Positions 21,976 to 30,194 of a stretch of 30,389 bases of DNA are shown here, piece by piece. This DNA comes from an uncultured Faecalibacterium sp. (GTDB lineage: Bacteria; Bacillota; Clostridia; Oscillospirales; Ruminococcaceae), in contig CAKSVD010000023.1 in NCBI GenBank assembly GCA_934503275.1, forward strand, positions 1 through 30,389, written 5' to 3'. A program made the translations under genes and the position numbers. The notes below the pieces were generated by a model. That model was not told where the DNA came from. It ran no database searches and worked only from the letters and a program-made list of their open reading frames with translations. Position 1 is the stretch's first letter; each line of letters begins with the position of its first letter.

Positions 21976-22053
21976 CCGGGTGTAGCGCAGTTTTGGTAGC
22001 GCGCTTGAATGGGGTTCAAGAGGCCGTGAGTTCGATTCTCGCCACTCGGACCA
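21976..22053 (+). tRNA. tRNA-Pro (GGG)
   Basis: The acceptor CCGGGTG pairs with CACTCGG, the anticodon stem CTTGA/TCAAG holds the loop ATGGGGT, and the T arm is GTGAG-TTCGATT-CTCGC. Anticodon GGG reads proline codons. The CCA is encoded. It marks the left border of an AT-rich accessory region. Confidence 0.95.
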
Positions 22054-22057
22054 AACA

Positions 22058-22109
22058 AAAATAATCCGAACTTGTTTCCGATAGGAGATGGGTTCGGATT
22101 ATTTGTTTT
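22058..22109 (+). terminator. Terminator of tRNA-Pro
   Basis: AAATAATCCGAAC (22059-22071) pairs with GTTCGGATTATTT (22092-22104), then GTTTTC. The stem begins 5 bp after the CCA. Confidence 0.75.
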
Positions 22110-22140
22110 CTTCGGAAAATTAGCGTTTGCGAAGCAATGA

Positions 22141-22232
22141 AAGCCCCAGTGGGGCTTTTAAGCGACGGAACGATCTGCGCTAGCAGATGGAGGGGCTTTG
22201 CCCCGACAAGTTCCACGCAGGTGTCCGTGGAA
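22141..22232. repeat. String of four short hairpins
   Basis: Four palindromes in a row: AAGCCCC-agt-GGGGCTT (22141-22157), ATCTGC-gcta-GCAGAT (22173-22188), GGGGC-ttt-GCCCC (22192-22204, loop shared) and TTCCACG...CGTGGAA (22211-22232). They fill the gap between the tRNA-Pro terminator and the AT-rich gene. No open frame of interest is present here. Confidence 0.5.
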
Positions 22233-22299
22233 GATAAAATCCGAAATCATAGATTGACCGATAATTATATATGCAAATCGAAGGAGTTGATCAGGCACT

Positions 22300-23667
22300 A
22301 TGGATAAACTTGTATATCAATATATAAAACGCTACGAGCCTAATGTAGAAGCGGATGATTTGTCTAACTTGAAAAAGCAATTGGTTATATTGCTAAATAA
22401 GCTTCATGATAACAAATCGGTTTATAAAAACTTACCATTTGATTATATGCCAGTAGGTGAACAGTTAAAACTAATGCATCATCTCCGGACTTCGCCGGTG
22501 GCAGGAAGACAAATTATATCCAATATGACAAAAATCGATGCTGATAGATCTTTTTTAGAATTTGCTTGTCCGTCGTTAAATAATGTTTTTTCGAGCGATA
22601 GTGAACTTCGAGAAATTCGTGAGAACCTTTTAAGTCTGGACCAATGGGTTCTCGATACACGATTTCAGATTCGATCGACTAAAGACAGCCGTTTTCTTCT
22701 TTTGAATCTTATGAGAACTAATTCGAATATTTTACGATGCTATCAAGATGAAGATTGTAGATTGCTGATTATGGGAGTAGGGTTAGCAGGATTTGAGCGA
22801 TTGAGGAGCTATATTGACTATGTTGCGAATGCATTATTACAGTTCCTGGTATATCATATTGTAGTTAATAAAAAAGAAAAAGCACTTGCTATTATTTCTC
22901 AGCTATGCATAAAAGCAGATGATTTAGATAAAGTCATGGATAAGAAATTGGAACAGCAACATCAAAAATGGAAAATTAATCCAATTAAGTTGACGGCAGA
23001 GCTTGTTTCTGGTGGCTTTAGCGATTTTTTAACGCATCGCAGCCGTTTTGAAGAAGAAATCCATATCAAGCAGCTTCTGGTGGAAGAAATGAAAAATCGA
23101 CCGGATTTTTTTGGTGAAATTCCATCAAAATACATTTCATCCAAGCGACTCATACAACCTACAGAACTTCAAACTATTGAATCAATCATTACAGAAGGAA
23201 AACACGTCAACAATTATGGAAGAAAGCTTTTAAACACACAAAAATTTATTGATGTTTTTTCTTCATACGGTGGTCGAAGTTGCAATTCCCTGTGCTTGAT
23301 GGATCTGAAAGTCTATTTTCGAGAAATTTATCTTAGCCATGTATGTTATGCACGAAAGCAAGCTGCATCTATTGTTTCTGAATATCTATCGGACGTTAGT
23401 GCCTGTTCGCCAACATTCTCACTGGATTCTTTTCCACAATTTCGGTTGAAAAAGCAATACATTTTTCTTCGAGAAAAAATCAATCGTGGGTATTTTCGTG
23501 AAACGGGTTTATCCAAAGCGTATGTTTCAAAATTTTCATTTGAAGAAAAGCTCTACACGCTGCTGTTAAAACCGTATCTTTTTTACTCACTTTCTGACGG
23601 TGTGAATGCTGTATACGAGATATACTCTGAATTCCTGCAAGAATACTATGATTTGTTGGCCGAGTAA
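22300..23667 (+). CDS. Unrecognised 455-aa protein of AT-rich island
   Basis: I do not recognise this protein. It is predicted to be largely helical, soluble and rich in Lys, Leu, Ser and Glu, with no signal peptide or clear membrane helix (the most hydrophobic patch is near 170-195). No nucleotide-binding or nuclease motif is obvious. Base composition and codon choice (AAA, TTA, ATT, GAT) are far more AT-rich than the flanking housekeeping genes, which points to recent transfer. AAGGAG at 22281-22286 lies 13 nt before the ATG, rather far but the only candidate. A 66-aa gene follows 90 bp later on the same strand. Position beside a tRNA suits an island gene, possibly a defence or phage-related function, but nothing in the sequence proves it. 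Confidence 0.8.
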   Translation: MDKLVYQYIKRYEPNVEADDLSNLKKQLVILLNKLHDNKSVYKNLPFDYMPVGEQLKLMHHLRTSPVAGRQIISNMTKIDADRSFLEFACPSLNNVFSSDSELREIRENLLSLDQWVLDTRFQIRSTKDSRFLLLNLMRTNSNILRCYQDEDCRLLIMGVGLAGFERLRSYIDYVANALLQFLVYHIVVNKKEKALAIISQLCIKADDLDKVMDKKLEQQHQKWKINPIKLTAELVSGGFSDFLTHRSRFEEEIHIKQLLVEEMKNRPDFFGEIPSKYISSKRLIQPTELQTIESIITEGKHVNNYGRKLLNTQKFIDVFSSYGGRSCNSLCLMDLKVYFREIYLSHVCYARKQAASIVSEYLSDVSACSPTFSLDSFPQFRLKKQYIFLREKINRGYFRETGLSKAYVSKFSFEEKLYTLLLKPYLFYSLSDGVNAVYEIYSEFLQEYYDLLAE

Positions 23668-23696
23668 TTTTTTTGCAAAACTCATTCCTCGAAAAT

Positions 23697-23716
23697 TTTT
23701 ACAACATGCTGTAAAA
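23697..23716. promoter_or_regulatory. Inverted repeat before the 66-aa gene, possible operator
   Basis: TTTTACA-acatgc-TGTAAAA is a perfect 7-bp inverted repeat with a 6-bp spacer, 42 bp upstream of the ATG. It is too AT-rich for a normal terminator and resembles a dimeric repressor site. Confidence 0.4.
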
Positions 23717-23757
23717 TGAAGATGTTCGCAATATATCTCTCAGGAAGGAACTTTTTT

Positions 23758-23958
23758 ATGGCACAAAAGAATTTGATAGTATATGGAAAAAACGGAAAAC
23801 GAATCGGCGGTGGAGCTGCACAATTGAAGCAAATCAAAAATTATGGAGGCTGGGATGCATATAATCGCGAGGTTTTTAAAGCTGGATATGAATATGGTTG
23901 GAAAGGGGCATGCAGTTCATTTATGAAAAAGATGGATAGAAGTTCTTTTAAAAAGTAA
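23758..23958 (+). CDS. Unrecognised 66-aa basic protein
   Basis: This small protein is rich in Gly, Lys, Tyr and Trp, with a central block GGGAAQLKQIKNYGGWDAYN and a tail KKMDRSSFKK. I know no family for it. The start at 23758 was chosen because AGGAAGGAA precedes it at 23741-23749; the open frame extends 14 codons further but without a ribosome site. It shares strand and AT-rich composition with the 455-aa gene upstream, and a plus-strand terminator lies about 190 bp downstream, so the two may be one unit. A toxin, antitoxin or small regulator are all conceivable; none is shown. Confidence 0.6.
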   Translation: MAQKNLIVYGKNGKRIGGGAAQLKQIKNYGGWDAYNREVFKAGYEYGWKGACSSFMKKMDRSSFKK

Positions 23959-24016
23959 CAATTTAGACTGCTATAACTAAGATGGATTATCTAAGAATGT
24001 AGGAATTGATTTGTTC

Positions 24017-24048
24017 AAAAACAGGGTGCGCCCTGCGGACGCACCCTG
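24017..24048 (-). terminator. Intrinsic terminator of the recombinase transcript
   Basis: On the minus strand, a perfect 9-bp stem CAGGGTGCG/CGCACCCTG (24040-24048 with 24022-24030) is followed by TTTTTG. It overlaps the left copy of the 54/60-bp direct repeat. Confidence 0.8.
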
Positions 24049-24095
24049 CCAAAATCCACATACGATAGCGATATGTACAACAGGGCGTTCCCCGT
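24036..24095. repeat. Direct repeat, left copy (60 bp)
   Basis: Identical to 27683-27736 except for 6 extra bases (AGCGAT) in the middle. It starts with CGGACGCACCCTGCC and ends with CAGGGCGTTCCCCGT. It lies just beyond the 3' end of the recombinase gene. Confidence 0.9.
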
Positions 24096-24149
24096 AGCAG
24101 AGTTCCCATAAAACAGTATTTGCAAAAGTTCCCTAAATGGGGAAGATTT

Positions 24150-24178
24150 GGCGTGACTTCGGTCACGCCTTTTCTTTT
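24150..24178 (+). terminator. Plus-strand terminator with UUCG loop
   Basis: GGCGTGAC-ttcg-GTCACGCC (24150-24169) is followed by TTTTCTTTT. The T tract is on the plus strand, so it would stop transcripts from the 455-aa/66-aa genes; on the minus strand the same stem overlaps the recombinase stop codon. Confidence 0.8.
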
Positions 24179-25800
24179 GCTTCCAGTTCATCCAGAGGGA
24201 TGTACCCCAGCCCATCGTACTTGATATGGATGTGCTGCACCCGCTTTCCGCTGGACTTATCCGGGGCATCCACATAGATGGCCGACACCAGTTCACGGAG
24301 AGCATAAGGGGTGAGTTCTTCAATATGAACGTACTTGTGCGCGTTCTGGACGAACTTTTCAATATTCTCGATCTGCTGTTCCTGTACTTCAATTTCCTGC
24401 TGGATGGAGAGAACTTCCTCTTCCAGCTGCTTCTGTTCGGCATCGTAGCTCTGACTCATCATGTCGAAGCGGTCATCGCTAAGCTTTCCGTTAACATTGT
24501 CCTCGTAAATCTTCATGAACAGCCGTTTGAGGTCTGCGATCCGCTTCTCATTCCGGGCAAGCTGCTTCTTCAGGACAGTCAGCTTTTCGGTGCTTTCCAC
24601 CCGAAGCTGCTCCTCCATGACCTTGCGGAAGTAGTCCTCATGACGGAGAATGTAGTCCGTCACCCGCTGAACATGGCTTAGCACACGGCCCTCCAAAACC
24701 TTTACCCGGATGAAGTGTCCCTTGCACTTGCTCCCGTTCTTCTTGTGCAGAGAGCAATCAAAGAAGTCTTGACTGAAGTCCCTGTGATTGGACGAACCAT
24801 ATTGCATCTTGGAACCGCAGTCAGCGCAGTAGACCATACCGGAGAAAATGCTGCTCTTGCCTGTCCGGGTCATGCGGTGACGCTGGCTACGAATCTCCTG
24901 AACCTTTTCAAACACATCATCGTCAATAATGCGCTCATGTGTATCCGGAAAGATAGCCTGATTTTCCACGGGATTCAGATGTCTCTTTTTATCCCAGATA
25001 GAGTTAGTATAGGTCTTAAAGTTGACTGTGCAGCCAGTGTACTCCCGGCGTTCCAGAATCGAACTTACTGCTCTTTTATCCCAGCGATAAGGGTCTTCCG
25101 GGGCGGGTGAGTTCGTACTCAGGCCATGGCTCAACTTATAGGCGGTGGGAGTCAGAACTTTGTCCACCCACAGTTGGTTTGCAATTTGGGTCGGGCCACG
25201 GCCTTCCATGCACATGGAGAAGATGCGCTTCACGATTGCAGCCGCTTCTGAATCAACAAGCCAATGTTTCGGGTTCTCCGGGTCTTTCACATAGCCGTAC
25301 GGCACATTGACCGTCAGCGGTACTCCACGCTCTCCCTTGGCCTTCTGAACAGCCCGAATCTTGCGGCTGGTATCGCGAGCGTAAAACTCGTTGAACCAGT
25401 TCTTAATGCCCGCAAAATCGTTGTTTACGCTGTTCGGGTCAATGGTGTCGTAGTTGTCGTTAATGGCAATGTAGCGAACGCCATACTGGGGAAAGGTGAA
25501 GTTGGTGTACAGACCTGTCAAGGCAGAATTACGCCCCAGTCGGGACAGGTCTTTCGTAATAACGATTCCTACACGTCCTGCTTCGATCTCGGCCAGCATA
25601 CTCTGAAAGCCGGGACGGTCATAGTTCGTGCCGGAGTAGCCATCATCCACAAAGAATACCGGGTTCGGGAAGTGGTTCTTTTTGGCGTATTCCAGAAGGA
25701 TGGCCTTCTGGTTCTCAATGGACAGGCTTTCGCCGAGCCGTGCGTCCTCTTGCGACAGTCGGCAGTAAAGTGCGGTGATTTTATTCGTTGCTCCAGACAT
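24163..25800 (-). CDS. Large serine recombinase (TnpX-like)
   Basis: This 545-aa site-specific recombinase excises and integrates mobile DNA through a serine-linked intermediate. The resolvase-type catalytic domain is N-terminal: nucleophile Ser16 in YCRLSQED, with arginines in DLSRLGRN (84-91). The Recombinase domain covers about 160-290, a zinc ribbon has Cys325, Cys328, Cys349 and Cys359, and a long coiled coil spans about 395-495. AAGGAGG lies 8 nt before the chosen ATG (25800). A longer form starting at 25887 would add 29 residues and overlap the upstream stop as ATGA; it has a weaker ribosome site. Length and domain order match TnpX-like enzymes of clostridial elements. It appears intact. 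Confidence 0.93.
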   Translation of the reverse strand: MSGATNKITALYCRLSQEDARLGESLSIENQKAILLEYAKKNHFPNPVFFVDDGYSGTNYDRPGFQSMLAEIEAGRVGIVITKDLSRLGRNSALTGLYTNFTFPQYGVRYIAINDNYDTIDPNSVNNDFAGIKNWFNEFYARDTSRKIRAVQKAKGERGVPLTVNVPYGYVKDPENPKHWLVDSEAAAIVKRIFSMCMEGRGPTQIANQLWVDKVLTPTAYKLSHGLSTNSPAPEDPYRWDKRAVSSILERREYTGCTVNFKTYTNSIWDKKRHLNPVENQAIFPDTHERIIDDDVFEKVQEIRSQRHRMTRTGKSSIFSGMVYCADCGSKMQYGSSNHRDFSQDFFDCSLHKKNGSKCKGHFIRVKVLEGRVLSHVQRVTDYILRHEDYFRKVMEEQLRVESTEKLTVLKKQLARNEKRIADLKRLFMKIYEDNVNGKLSDDRFDMMSQSYDAEQKQLEEEVLSIQQEIEVQEQQIENIEKFVQNAHKYVHIEELTPYALRELVSAIYVDAPDKSSGKRVQHIHIKYDGLGYIPLDELEAKEKA

Positions 25801-25883
25801 TGTTGTGTCCTCCTTATTCTGTGGAGCAACTGTCAGTACAGGATTGGTTACCGGATCAAGTATAGCAGAATTGGACGCAGTTG

Positions 25884-26348
25884 TCATTCGTCTGCACCCT
25901 CATCTTCAAATTTTTGCTGGGCGTTCTTGGCAACAATGCGCTCCAGTTTCTTCAAAAAGGATTCCTTGCCCTCATAGCTGCCGGTCACGGTGTAGGTGGT
26001 GTGACCGACTTTCTCCGTGGTGGTCAGTTCAGGAATCCAGAATGCAGACAGGTTCTTGACATGAAGATTGCCGTTCTCATCTACATAGGAGCCGTGCTTC
26101 TTCTGCTCTTCGGTCAAGGGCTGCCGCTTGAAATAGATTTCGTTTTCGGAGATGCTCACGGTTTCGCTGGCTTGCTCCTTCGGGGCATCGTCATACAGCT
26201 GGGCAAAAAATGCCAGTGCATCTTCGGGTGAGTCTTCCTCCATGAGCTGCTCGAAAACTCGCTGTTCCTCTGCCGAGAGGTTGTTCCATGCGGCTTCCAA
26301 CTCCTGCTCGTTGGCTGCGTTGACAAAGGCTTCGATTTCTTTTTTCAT
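25884..26348 (-). CDS. TnpW-like C-terminal domain protein
   Basis: This 154-aa acidic protein has two parts. Residues about 1-50 are helical and Glu/Ala-rich. Residues about 113-145 (VGHTTYTVTGSYEGKESFLK onward) resemble the small TnpW proteins of Tn4451-type elements, which carry a similar G-x-T-x-Y-x-V stretch followed by a K-x-x-R/E-I helix. The similarity is recalled, not computed. The function of TnpW is unknown. AAAGGAGG precedes the ATG, and the stop overlaps a possible recombinase start by ATGA, so the two genes are probably coexpressed. It lacks a clear promoter of its own; 26349-26510 contains palindromes only. Confidence 0.65.
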   Translation of the reverse strand: MKKEIEAFVNAANEQELEAAWNNLSAEEQRVFEQLMEEDSPEDALAFFAQLYDDAPKEQASETVSISENEIYFKRQPLTEEQKKHGSYVDENGNLHVKNLSAFWIPELTTTEKVGHTTYTVTGSYEGKESFLKKLERIVAKNAQQKFEDEGADE

Positions 26349-26428
26349 GGTGCATCCTCCTTTGGCTGCGGAAAGCGTTTTTCAAAAAGTATGGGTTTTC
26401 GTGAGAGCAAGAATCGTCCCGTGGCCAC

Positions 26429-26451
26429 AAATTTTCAATTCTTGAAAATTT
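26429..26451. repeat. 23-bp palindrome upstream of the TnpW-like gene
   Basis: AAATTTTCAA-ttc-TTGAAAATTT is a perfect 10-bp inverted repeat with a 3-bp centre. A second, CTGTCC-ccttta-GGACAG, follows at 26453-26470. They may be binding sites for a dimeric regulator or the recombinase. Confidence 0.5.
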
Positions 26452-26509
26452 CCTGTCCCCTTTAGGACAGCTTCTTGTTGGGGCGTGCCTGCCCCAAACC
26501 CTGCCAGAT

Positions 26510-26535
26510 AAAAGCAAAGGGGCATTATCTGCCCC
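26510..26535 (-). terminator. Terminator at the end of yjdF
   Basis: On the minus strand GGGGCA-gataa-TGCCCC spans the yjdF stop codon and is followed by TTTGCTTTT. Confidence 0.65.
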
Positions 26536-26941
26536 GATGCTTTTCCTTTCGCTTCTGCTGTTTCAGTTCAAACTGACGTTGCTTTTCTGCTTCGCGTTGT
26601 TTACGGCTAAGTGCTTTTCGCACCAGCTTGTTTTCTTCTCGCTGCATTTGCAACGCCTGCTGTGACTTTGTACTGATTCCTGTGGCAACTGTTTCCTTTC
26701 GGATTTTCCGTTGCAATCGCTTTGGGTTCACAGACTCTTTCTTTACAACTGTCTCAACAGATGGACTGAAGTGCAGCCGACTGTAATTCTTGAGCAGATA
26801 CTCCCAGACTTCATAGTCCTTTGGTTCTGCACCAAACACGACTTTACACACTGAAAGCTTTCTTCTCTCAATACGTTCAAATACTCCGATCCAGAATGGA
26901 GCCTCAAAAAATACAGTCAGCTTTGTAGAATCAATGTCCAT
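26525..26941 (-). CDS. yjdF: YjdF family protein
   Basis: This 138-aa protein matches the YjdF (DUF2992) family: an N-terminal globular part with KLTVFFEAPFWIGVFER and KVVFGAEPKDYEVWEYLLKN, then a long basic helical tail (about 80-138) rich in Lys, Arg and Gln. In Firmicutes, yjdF genes are controlled by a riboswitch that binds azaaromatic compounds, and the protein is thought to help deal with such toxic planar molecules; its activity is not known. A CAGGAGGG ribosome site precedes the ATG. A long structured leader with its own promoter lies upstream. Here it appears as cargo of a recombinase element. Confidence 0.9.
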   Translation of the reverse strand: MDIDSTKLTVFFEAPFWIGVFERIERRKLSVCKVVFGAEPKDYEVWEYLLKNYSRLHFSPSVETVVKKESVNPKRLQRKIRKETVATGISTKSQQALQMQREENKLVRKALSRKQREAEKQRQFELKQQKRKEKHRGR

Positions 26942-27108
26942 AACGAAACCCTCCTGAAATAAATCCTTACAGGAACGGACAACCCGGAGGGGAAGGTTAC
27001 TTACCTACACCGTGCGGTGTAGACGGCTGGGCTACCTACCAGCTCTGGCATCTCTCAGAAAGAAATGCGTTGCGTTTTTATCCTGCTTTTATTATATAAA
27101 GCACATCC
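26942..27108 (-). ncRNA. Candidate yjdF riboswitch (azaaromatic-sensing leader)
   Basis: The leader runs about 165 nt from the predicted start (near 27108) to the yjdF ATG. It holds a stem TCTACACCG-CACGGTGTAG-like hairpin (about 27009-27030), a conserved-looking stretch GAGCTGGTAGGTAGCCCAGC, and the block AACCTTCCCCTCC. In the last of these CCCTCC (complement of 26986-26992) can pair with the yjdF ribosome site GGAGGG (26949-26955), a ready way to hide it. The family link to a riboswitch is established for yjdF genes; the match of this copy was judged by position and structure only. Confidence 0.75.
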
Positions 27109-27114
27109 CTGTGC

Positions 27115-27142
27115 ATTATATCTACCTTAATTGGTTTTCCAA
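27115..27142 (-). promoter_or_regulatory. Promoter of the yjdF leader
   Basis: On the minus strand, -35 TTGGAA (27137-27142), a 16-bp spacer and a perfect -10 TATAAT (27115-27120). Another TATAAT on the same strand is at 27091-27096 but has no good -35. Confidence 0.7.
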
Positions 27143-27160
27143 GTGAAGTATACCACACTC

Positions 27161-27176
27161 GTGGTCAAATGACCAC
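27161..27176. promoter_or_regulatory. Palindrome upstream of the yjdF promoter
   Basis: GTGGTCAAATGACCAC has perfect 7-bp arms around AA, centred about 29 bp upstream of the -35 box. It may be an activator or recombinase site. Confidence 0.4.
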
Positions 27177-27204
27177 CCATATATACGAGAATTTGGCTGT
27201 TTTA

Positions 27205-27245
27205 CTGCGTACGTGCGTACCAACCTTCCGTACGCACGTACGCAG
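27205..27245. repeat. Perfect 16-bp inverted repeat with 9-bp loop
   Basis: CTGCGTACGTGCGTAC (27205-27220) and GTACGCACGTACGCAG (27230-27245) are exact reverse complements around CAACCTTCC. Each arm contains two GTACG units. There is no T tract, so it is not an ordinary terminator. Nick sites, replication starts and recombinase sites can look like this. Confidence 0.85.
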
Positions 27246-27545
27246 CGATTTGTCCGAAACGCGCTCTATACAGCCGTTCCTCCTCGGAGAGCCCACTACA
27301 CTTTGCAGACCGCAGGGATGAAAGTGTTATAGTGGGTTATTACACTTCCGCAGAAGTGCCTTTTCCTCGCCGCAAACAGCCGGGGTGCGCCTTTGTGAGA
27401 GGCTTTCTATGCGGCGAATCCACATCGCCCACAAGCGATGTGAGCAGGGATTCTAAGGGGCGCAGCACCCTCTTGGCACACGACTTTGGTGCAAAGTCTA
27501 GTGTGTTACACCTTGCCAAAGGCGCACACGTTCCTGAAATGCAAA
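27246..27545. other. Hairpin-rich non-coding stretch
   Basis: I see no credible gene here. Paired arms include CCCACTA/TAGTGGG with CACTTT/AAAGTG (about 27290-27336), CGCCGCA/TGCGGCG (about 27368-27416), ACATCGC/GCGATGT (about 27423-27442) and CACAC-gACTTT/AAAGT-ctaGTGTG (about 27476-27507). The plus-strand open frame at 27332-27568 crosses these arms and has no ribosome site. The region could hold a transfer origin or a structured RNA. Confidence 0.45.
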
Positions 27546-27583
27546 AAACCCCATGCCCAACACCTTGACGGTGCAGACATGGG
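27543..27583 (-). terminator. Terminator of the ParB/82-aa transcript
   Basis: On the minus strand CCCATG...CACC-gtcaa-GGTG...CATGGG is followed by GTTTTTT. It is the first such signal downstream of the leftward ParB-like and 82-aa genes. Confidence 0.7.
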
Positions 27584-27674
27584 ACTTGGTGCTTCCTCGG
27601 CCTAGCCAGGTACTCGTAACCAATCCTGACAGGGCAGTTGCCGTGTCATTTCTCGAAAACTGTTTTACAGATAC

Positions 27675-27923
27675 CTAGCACCCGGACGCACCCTGCCAAA
27701 ATCCACATACGATATGTACAACAGGGCGTTCCCCGTCGGGAACGCTCTGCTTTTCTTTGCTGGGGATATGATGAGCCTGCTCCGCCTGCCATGCGGCAAA
27801 CTCCCGCTGGCCTTCCTCGCTGTTCCAGCAGGCAAGGATGGCCGGGTAGAATGCCCGCGCCAGACGTTCGATGGCTTCATCGGGATAGGGGGAAGTGTTC
27901 GTGGACTTTTTCTTTTTGTTCAA
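27675..27923 (-). CDS. 82-aa element protein with TTG start
   Basis: I do not recognise this small protein. It has a basic N-terminus (NKKKKS), an aromatic middle (DEAIERLARAFYPAILACW and REFAAWQAEQ) and a tail encoded by the direct repeat. The TTG start was chosen because AAAGGAG lies 7 nt upstream and the whole ribosome-site region (AAAGGAGYGTGCGTWTG) is nearly identical to that of the ParB-like gene. A longer ATG form at 27956 has no ribosome site. The last 20 residues lie in the repeat 27683-27736, so the original C-terminus may have been replaced. Confidence 0.6.
   Translation of the reverse strand: MNKKKKSTNTSPYPDEAIERLARAFYPAILACWNSEEGQREFAAWQAEQAHHIPSKEKQSVPDGERPVVHIVCGFWQGASGC
27683..27736. 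repeat. Direct repeat, right copy (54 bp)
   Basis: It matches 24036-24095 in the same orientation apart from the missing AGCGAT. It overlaps the 3' end of the 82-aa gene and is followed by a hairpin GCGTTCCC...GGGAACGC (27727-27746). Confidence 0.9.
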
Positions 27924-29286: not shown

Positions 29287-29874
29287 TTATTGTTCCCACG
29301 TTTTGGCTTTTTGTCGGACATTTATAATTTGGAGCTGGTATAGAATGCTGGGAATTGCAGAAGCCAATGAAAAAATACCCAAGACAATAGAATGCTTGAT
29401 AATGGCAAACAGTGCAAATAGGAGCAGCAGAAATAGCCATGGGTTACGCAAATTGCGGTAGTATTTTTCTTTATCGGCATAAGAAGTATGAAGTTCAAAA
29501 GGCTTTCCGTCGTTTGATTTTTCTACAATCAATAGTTCCCTGTTAAAAGTTGTTGCGTTTGTTGCAATACAACCGCCCATTTCCGCCCATGGACGCAATC
29601 GAACTTTTCCGACAGAATAGTTTAGATTGATATTTTTGAAAAATACCTTGTAGCCCATATCCTCCAAAAAATCAGCGTAGTCCGTTGCATCCTCTTTTGA
29701 TTTTTCTCCGATAAACTCTACACAATAGGTCACTTCATCAGGACTGCATTCTTCAAATTCATAGAGCACCCTCCCTGTCCGGACAAGTCGATAGCCTTTT
29801 TCGGACATTTTGTTTAACCATTTTGCCTGTGCATTTAGCAATCCACCAAAGAAGCGATAACATTTTTTACTCAT
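29287..29874 (-). CDS. DUF2812 domain membrane protein
   Basis: This 195-aa protein has a soluble N-terminal DUF2812 domain (about 5-115, with KWLNKMSEKGYRLV) and two membrane helices (about 145-158 and 161-180), with a short basic tail. DUF2812 proteins are typically encoded with a PadR regulator, as here, and their function is unknown; a role in envelope stress or toxin response has been suggested only by context. It overlaps the PadR gene by 4 bp (ATGA). Confidence 0.9.
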   Translation of the reverse strand: MSKKCYRFFGGLLNAQAKWLNKMSEKGYRLVRTGRVLYEFEECSPDEVTYCVEFIGEKSKEDATDYADFLEDMGYKVFFKNINLNYSVGKVRLRPWAEMGGCIATNATTFNRELLIVEKSNDGKPFELHTSYADKEKYYRNLRNPWLFLLLLFALFAIIKHSIVLGIFSLASAIPSILYQLQIINVRQKAKTWEQ

Positions 29875-30194
29875 ACGGCACCTCCAATAATTTCACTTGC
29901 AATGCTTACAAGTTCGGTTAGTCTTGCAAGCTCTTTTTCTGCAATTTCTTTTCCCTGTGCTGTAATGTGGTATTCTTTTTTTCTTCCCTCACTATCGCCA
30001 TAAGGTTCAATCCACTTCTTGTCCTGCAAAGAGTTTAATGCTCCATATAAAGTGCCTGCGCCTAGGGAAAGCCGTCCGTCTGTTTTTTCTTCAATAAACT
30101 GCATAACAGCGTATCCGTGTTTTGGTGTATAAAGAGAAAGCAAAATATAAAAGGTGACTTCTGTAAGCGCACCGCCTTTTGCATTATCGCGCAT
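29871..30194 (-). CDS. PadR family transcriptional regulator
   Basis: This 107-aa regulator has the PadR winged helix: LTEVTFYILLSLYTPKHGYAV, GAGTLYGALNSLQDKKWIEP and the wing GRKKEYHITAQGKE, followed by a C-terminal dimerisation helix. The ATG at 30194 is preceded by AGGAGG; the open frame extends through the promoter and is not used upstream. It probably represses its own operon, through the inverted repeat at 30209-30244, until a small molecule or stress releases it. Confidence 0.93.
   Translation of the reverse strand: MRDNAKGGALTEVTFYILLSLYTPKHGYAVMQFIEEKTDGRLSLGAGTLYGALNSLQDKKWIEPYGDSEGRKKEYHITAQGKEIAEKELARLTELVSIASEIIGGAV

Follow-up and report, generated by a model that had tools for sequence, protein, structure and literature searches.

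The two AT-rich genes that stand beside a tRNA-Pro gene in the window, by which we mean the whole stretch of 30,389 nt analysed here, belong to a rare and mobile accessory module that carries a conserved non-coding element directly against the promoter of its small gene. What is new here is the presence of this element in seven out of seven independent loci and the fact that it was found again out of sample.

At the window site the first gene of the module (22300–23667, forward strand) is an open reading frame whose translation gives a protein of 455 aa. The second one (23758–23958, forward strand), likewise an open reading frame with a translation, encodes a basic protein of 66 aa with a pI of about 10, and AGGAAGGA is located 8 nt upstream of its ATG. 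The tRNA-Pro (GGG) gene at 21976–22053, also on the forward strand, is a neighbour outside the module. Measured in 1-kb windows, the G+C content is 0.35–0.38 in the island vs 0.53–0.64 to its left. Open reading frames, base composition and the tRNA all agree with a preliminary description of this site, in which two AT-rich genes on the same strand had been placed next to a tRNA-Pro. The same description had called both products unrecognised, and indeed no usable match was obtained for them in Pfam, NCBIfam, PHROGs or PADLOC; a confident match to a housekeeping family was not found either.

The island is real and mobile. A contig from the IMG/VR collection (L008) is a 96.8% match to positions 22048–24095 of the window and diverges from it at the 3' end of the tRNA; the left side of this contig is viral according to the classification of the collection. 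In genome G004 the sequence at window position 22211 continues at 27804, and both the module and the neighbouring recombinase element are missing. A different region follows the tRNA in G007. In G001 the tRNA is followed by a tyrosine-recombinase-like gene, and G027 has similar DNA there, which is shortened as judged by eye. The viral DNA beside the module in L008 also contains a gene (L008:4374–4982) that matches phrog_3206, a phage Avd protein belonging to a diversity-generating retroelement.

Since L008 does not have the DNA from 24.04 to 27.68 kb, the serine recombinase/yjdF element to the right of the module is a separate insertion. It spans positions 24036–27736 (unstranded), is bounded by direct repeats at 24036–24095 and 27683–27736, and contains genes for a large serine recombinase (574 aa), a weakly TnpW-like protein (below the Pfam cut-off) and a DUF2992 protein (yjdF), the latter accompanied by an azaaromatic riboswitch (RF01764) at 26959–27091. 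We take the insertion to resemble a Tn4451-type element with a riboswitch-controlled yjdF. The terminator with a UUCG loop at 24150–24169, which had been thought to close the two-gene unit, belongs to this insertion and is absent from L008 together with it. Therefore it is not the end of the unit, and the recombinase, which had been counted as part of the module layout, does not belong there. In L008 a hairpin followed by a T-run is located directly 3' of the small gene; here it is found beyond the right repeat (27683–27745, by eye). Judged in the same way, the insertion seems to have come between the two.

The module is rare and accessory. An exact-pattern scan covering 84,980 species with a single genome each yielded 93 stretches, from which at least six loci were confirmed, and four contigs were confirmed in scans of viral sequences. 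The large protein family was found in none of 61 relatives of the nearest genome, including the 31 of its genus (one genome per species), and in none of 398 genomes of its phylum; as a positive control, the same profile detected six out of six carrier genomes. Searches centred on carriers gave 2 of 397, 2 of 299, 1 of 245 and 1 of 299 genomes, that is, the carrier itself and no more than a single additional match, distant or spurious. Seven loci were treated as independent: the window (with L008), L002, L003 (with L004), L005, L006, L007 and L009 (with L010 and L011). Left out were the near-identical loci L001 and L008 (97% like the window) and L004 (97% identical to L003 over 2955 bp), two loci of the same phage type as L009 (L010, L011), second copies (L012–L017, L020, L021, L053–L055, L070–L076), a distant subfamily (L018/L052) and the spurious L019. 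Within the listings searched, the gene pair was not found in the literature of the open PMC library.

For the large protein 119 homologues were obtained, and those at element-bearing loci are 33–41% identical to the window protein. Residues 316–350 and 386–420 form its best-conserved stretches, and K309, D335, K337, Y339, E342, K393, R396, Y398, E401 and K411 are invariant in 63 of 63 aligned sequences. A structure model predicts with confidence an all-helical protein, for which no convincing fold match was obtained. The best Pfam line for the window product had an E-value of only 0.27, PADLOC, PHROGs and NCBIfam gave nothing usable, and in PADLOC-DB 2.0.0 neither the large nor the small product has a match. 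When the 63 family members of alignment A1 were scanned against PADLOC, C3a162 was hit by three, JukB by two and REase_II by one of them, with a best E-value of 3.5e-4; ten divergent members, scanned against PADLOC again, gave no match. Against Pfam the 63 members hit 22 families at E ≤ 0.05, each family in one to three members. The strongest of these matches, DUF3991 at 5.2e-6, came from a single member (P0106), the N-terminal half of which is foreign. In these profile scans neither a recognised DNA-binding domain nor similarity to recombinases was found in the large protein.

The small protein, with nine homologues found, is characterised by the motif GKNGxxxGGGAAQLxxIKxxGGWD. At six of the seven independent loci the small gene follows the large one; therefore it is no chance open reading frame, and the pairing noticed at the window site recurs among the homologues. 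The exception is L007, where an unrelated 94-aa gene stands in its place, and a genome search in the carrier of this locus (G460) did not find a small-gene homologue. In five of six large-gene carrier genomes the sole strong match to the small gene adjoins the large gene, and scanning viral contigs with the small protein led to the same four contigs as scanning with the large one. What follows the element varies: 66 aa alone (window, L002), 64 then 168 aa (L003), 64 then 136 aa (L010), 123 then 65 aa (L005, so that here a 123-aa gene stands between the large and the small gene) or the unrelated 94 aa (L007). Out of 240 genomes of the family of G455, two have the small gene, G455 and G513. In G513 it is an orphan (locus L081), with no large gene in the 474 bp upstream, up to the contig end; G513 appears to be among the genomes covered by a large-gene search, in which no match is listed for it. 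The locus also lies beside DNA that looks like an insertion sequence by eye.

The conserved element, TTTTTTTGCAAAACTCATTCC at 23668–23688 (forward strand), begins directly after the stop codon of the large gene and is a putative operator or activator site. A version of TTTTTTGCAAAACTCATWCC occurs directly after the large-gene stop in seven out of seven loci, the one in L005 being the most diverged, and the element is kept at L007 without the small gene as well as at L081 without the large one. It lies hard against the promoter-like block of the small gene (23689–23717, forward strand), which consists of a −35 box TCGAAA (23689–23694), a spacer of 17 bp and a −10 box TAAAAT (23712–23717). A de novo motif search in the seven intergenic regions gave 18.7 bits vs at most 12.5 in 40 dinucleotide-shuffled sets, with 80 starting points for the real set and 25 per shuffled set. 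No such excess was observed upstream of the large gene (best motif 14.2, shuffle maximum 14.4) or downstream of the small gene (12.4 and 13.0, respectively). At a single spacing (6 + 17 bp) all seven loci match TATAAT at five of six positions, giving a match sum of 35 out of 42, and the next best among 60 spacings reaches 21. The −35 boxes are weak and variable, with three to five of six matches. Among seven sequences (L081 included, L009 left out) pairwise identity is 87% in the 12-bp core of the element, 72% in its T-run (8 bp), 75% in the −10 and 56% in the −35 box; outside the element it is 27–29% upstream, 26% in the spacer and 32% after the −10 box. An inverted repeat upstream of the small gene had been regarded as perfect and as a feature of this gene. 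With nine of ten pairs (90% complementary) the repeat TTTTACAACA/TGCTGTAAAA at 23697–23716 (unstranded) is imperfect, and it falls into the little conserved spacer and the −10 box and is not conserved elsewhere. The locus L081, which was found by the small protein alone, has this block too, with TATAAT at an unchanged distance. It reaches 35.8 bits, whereas no other site in its 10 kb exceeds 6.2 bits. Including L081, the element is tied to the −10 box at constant spacing in eight out of eight loci.

We interpret the element as a control site dedicated to the small gene. The most plausible explanation is that it is bound by a protein encoded by the module, given that it stands hard against a weak −35 box, is common to modules of Clostridia and Bacilli, and is strongest at the module in most carriers. 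If up to three mismatches were allowed, the module copy ranked first among the matches in four of six carrier genomes and shared the first place in G460; in the genome G458, which carries the diverged L005, it was not among the matches, and a copy with one mismatch was located elsewhere. Matches outnumbered those of a reversed control in five of the six carriers (17/5, 10/1, 29/11, 21/12 and 12/5, but 9/16 in G460), so some weaker host sites are possible. Both this excess and the position of the best copy in G458 could mean that a host regulator, and not a module protein, reads the element. Against this, 30 match stretches separated clearly once the −10 box was included in the score: the five at modules had 30.7–36.4 bits and the other 25 at most 16.5, as compared with 26–36 bits for the module loci as a whole, and the one-mismatch copy in G458 had 8.7. 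Over approximately 1.0 million positions of the collected loci (overlapping copies included) all sites above 17 bits are at module copies or at the orphan gene. In the distant subfamily (L018/L052) there is no site above 13 bits and no small gene.

The genomic surroundings differ between the loci. Three of the seven independent ones (L002, L003/L004 and L009/L010) are located within phage tail operons and are oriented as the tail genes. In L003 and L010 the module comes before the tape measure gene and is separated from it by a single gene of 168 or 136 aa, and in L002 it comes after a 120-aa gene that follows the tape measure. These slots accommodate other cargo as well: the slot used in L003 is occupied in L002 by a DUF4238/SEC-C gene, and the one used in L002 is occupied in L003 by a DJ-1/PfpI-like gene. 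Phage relatives have the same slots without the module. Locus L005 is found near complete QatA, QatB, QatC and QatD genes (with one phosphatase-like gene between) and TniB/TnsD-type genes, whereas L007 stands downstream of glmS, with a type I restriction system on its other side and a TnsD fragment beside it. No known defence neighbour was recognised in the window; nor was one at L006, where two neighbours were scanned against NCBIfam only, without a match. In a purely descriptive tally, three of seven loci are in phage cargo slots, two are next to known defence systems and two are in neither situation. Among Tn7-like transposons, 26% contain known innate systems (PMC8649781), which makes the two defence neighbourhoods supportive, not decisive. 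The DUF4238 gene with its SEC-C motif in the module slot of L003 (L002:5179–6477) is a candidate cargo gene itself.

From these contexts we tentatively suggest that the likeliest job of this mobile accessory module is to defend its carrier against phages or mobile elements other than the carrier, or to make the carrier immune to its own system. The large helical protein would then be the sensor or the effector, and the small basic protein its regulator or antidote, comparable to an antitoxin. One of the two proteins would bind the element and so set the level of the small protein, and an infection could upset this balance, upon which the large protein would stop phage growth. For the small protein the role of an antidote or regulator fits better than that of a lone effector, because an orphan gene with an intact promoter would be easier to explain for the former than for a killer; L081 may be a remnant. 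What speaks against defence is that the window and L006 have no recognised defence neighbour and that no defence model matches. Of the undescribed defence, immunity or toxin module proposed in the preliminary description, the unrecognised mobile pair and its defence-type surroundings hold, but the recombinase and the terminator lie outside of it.

Weak −35 boxes with a conserved site upstream are the look of activator-dependent promoters. A less probable reading takes the large protein for a DNA-binding activator or repressor which fires the promoter on infection, with the small gene, and perhaps the variable further gene, as the effector. The weak and variable −35 boxes with the conserved site right upstream would fit, as would the different genes after the element (although a shared transcript would be an assumption) and the position of the element after the large gene at all seven loci, even at L007 without the small gene. 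However, no DNA-binding domain was recognised in the large protein, and the orphan small gene has the promoter block but not the large gene. Rather doubtful appears to us the idea of a new kind of phage-sensing switch, in which a helical sensor without a known family controls exchangeable small output proteins through one private, strongly conserved promoter element, in prophages and Tn7-like islands across Bacillota.

A metabolic or phage-morphogenesis accessory without any role in defence is unlikely. The three loci inside tail operons, in the orientation of the tail genes, would be in agreement with it, but the module has also Tn7-like and tRNA-linked surroundings, and there are phage relatives in which the slots do not contain it.

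In BstA systems the protein is suppressed by aba, a short DNA element that lies at the bstA locus itself and overlaps the beginning of the gene; every BstA variant is paired with a cognate aba (PMC8585504). The likeness consists in a prophage protein with a short cis-acting DNA element at its locus. By analogy, the large protein could block the replication of foreign phages and the element could be the self-immunity site that spares the carrier prophage, since a short conserved DNA element adjoins an often prophage-borne gene here, too. We consider this quite improbable. The element here abuts a promoter, with a constant −10 spacing in eight out of eight loci that an immunity site would not need, and it occurs also outside recognised phages (L005, L007, window). 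Moreover, it is common to divergent relatives, with proteins 33–41% identical to that of the window, in contrast to the variant-specific aba (PMC8585504). Most improbable of all is a self-mobilising pair, in which the large protein would be an unrecognised recombinase or transposase and the element an end or attachment site: many unrelated locations and a conserved site beside the gene might suggest it, but the element is internal and not at an edge, no motif beyond the shuffles exists upstream of the large or downstream of the small gene, the module sits either in slots also used by other cargo or on vehicles that bring recombination genes of their own, and there is no recombinase similarity.

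Type II toxin-antitoxin systems are compact mobile pairs with a small partner and a conserved site at the promoter. The module resembles them as a compact mobile pair with a small basic partner and a conserved promoter site, and in six of seven independent loci the two genes are adjacent and co-inherited. It differs from them in the order, large then small, in the separate promoter of the small gene and in that no toxin domain was recognised. A further likeness, in location, is with Tab (PMC10884400) and Tai (PMC11364771), defences of prophages or satellites with counter-defence partners: these are prophage-borne accessory genes, some paired with a gene that prevents self-inhibition, and most Tai homologues are in phage moron loci (PMC11364771). 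Tai homologues are reported from Proteobacteria and Tab from Pseudomonas, whereas the module is from Bacillota and is found beside Tn7-type genes as well. Two of the seven loci, which have TnsD/TniQ-type genes and are adjacent to known defence systems, are similar to the defence cargo of Tn7-like elements (PMC8649781), but the gene pair is not a recognised system.

If the module serves defence, it would contribute both a protein family in which no domain is recognised and a conserved promoter element. Candidate defence systems are usually proposed on neighbourhood alone. A conserved control site before the partner gene would provide a handle on the silencing and firing of such a system, and should the small gene be an antidote, an orphan copy of it would confer resistance to the system. 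A defence module of this kind would be directly testable by means of one 20-bp element and two small genes, with clear predictions.

Some minor observations concern the distant subfamily and the flanks of the module in the window. In L052 (5832–8310) a distant relative of 523 aa is flanked by a pair of almost identical 110-aa genes, which by eye resemble HTH regulators, and recombinase-like genes, also by eye, are found further on. An intergenic repeat (AAAGCCCCAGTGGGGC ... GGGGCTTTGCCCC) at 22116–22210 has many copies in genomes of the genus of the nearest genome. At the right end of the window, positions 29287–30194 contain a DUF2812 gene and an adjacent PadR-type regulator.
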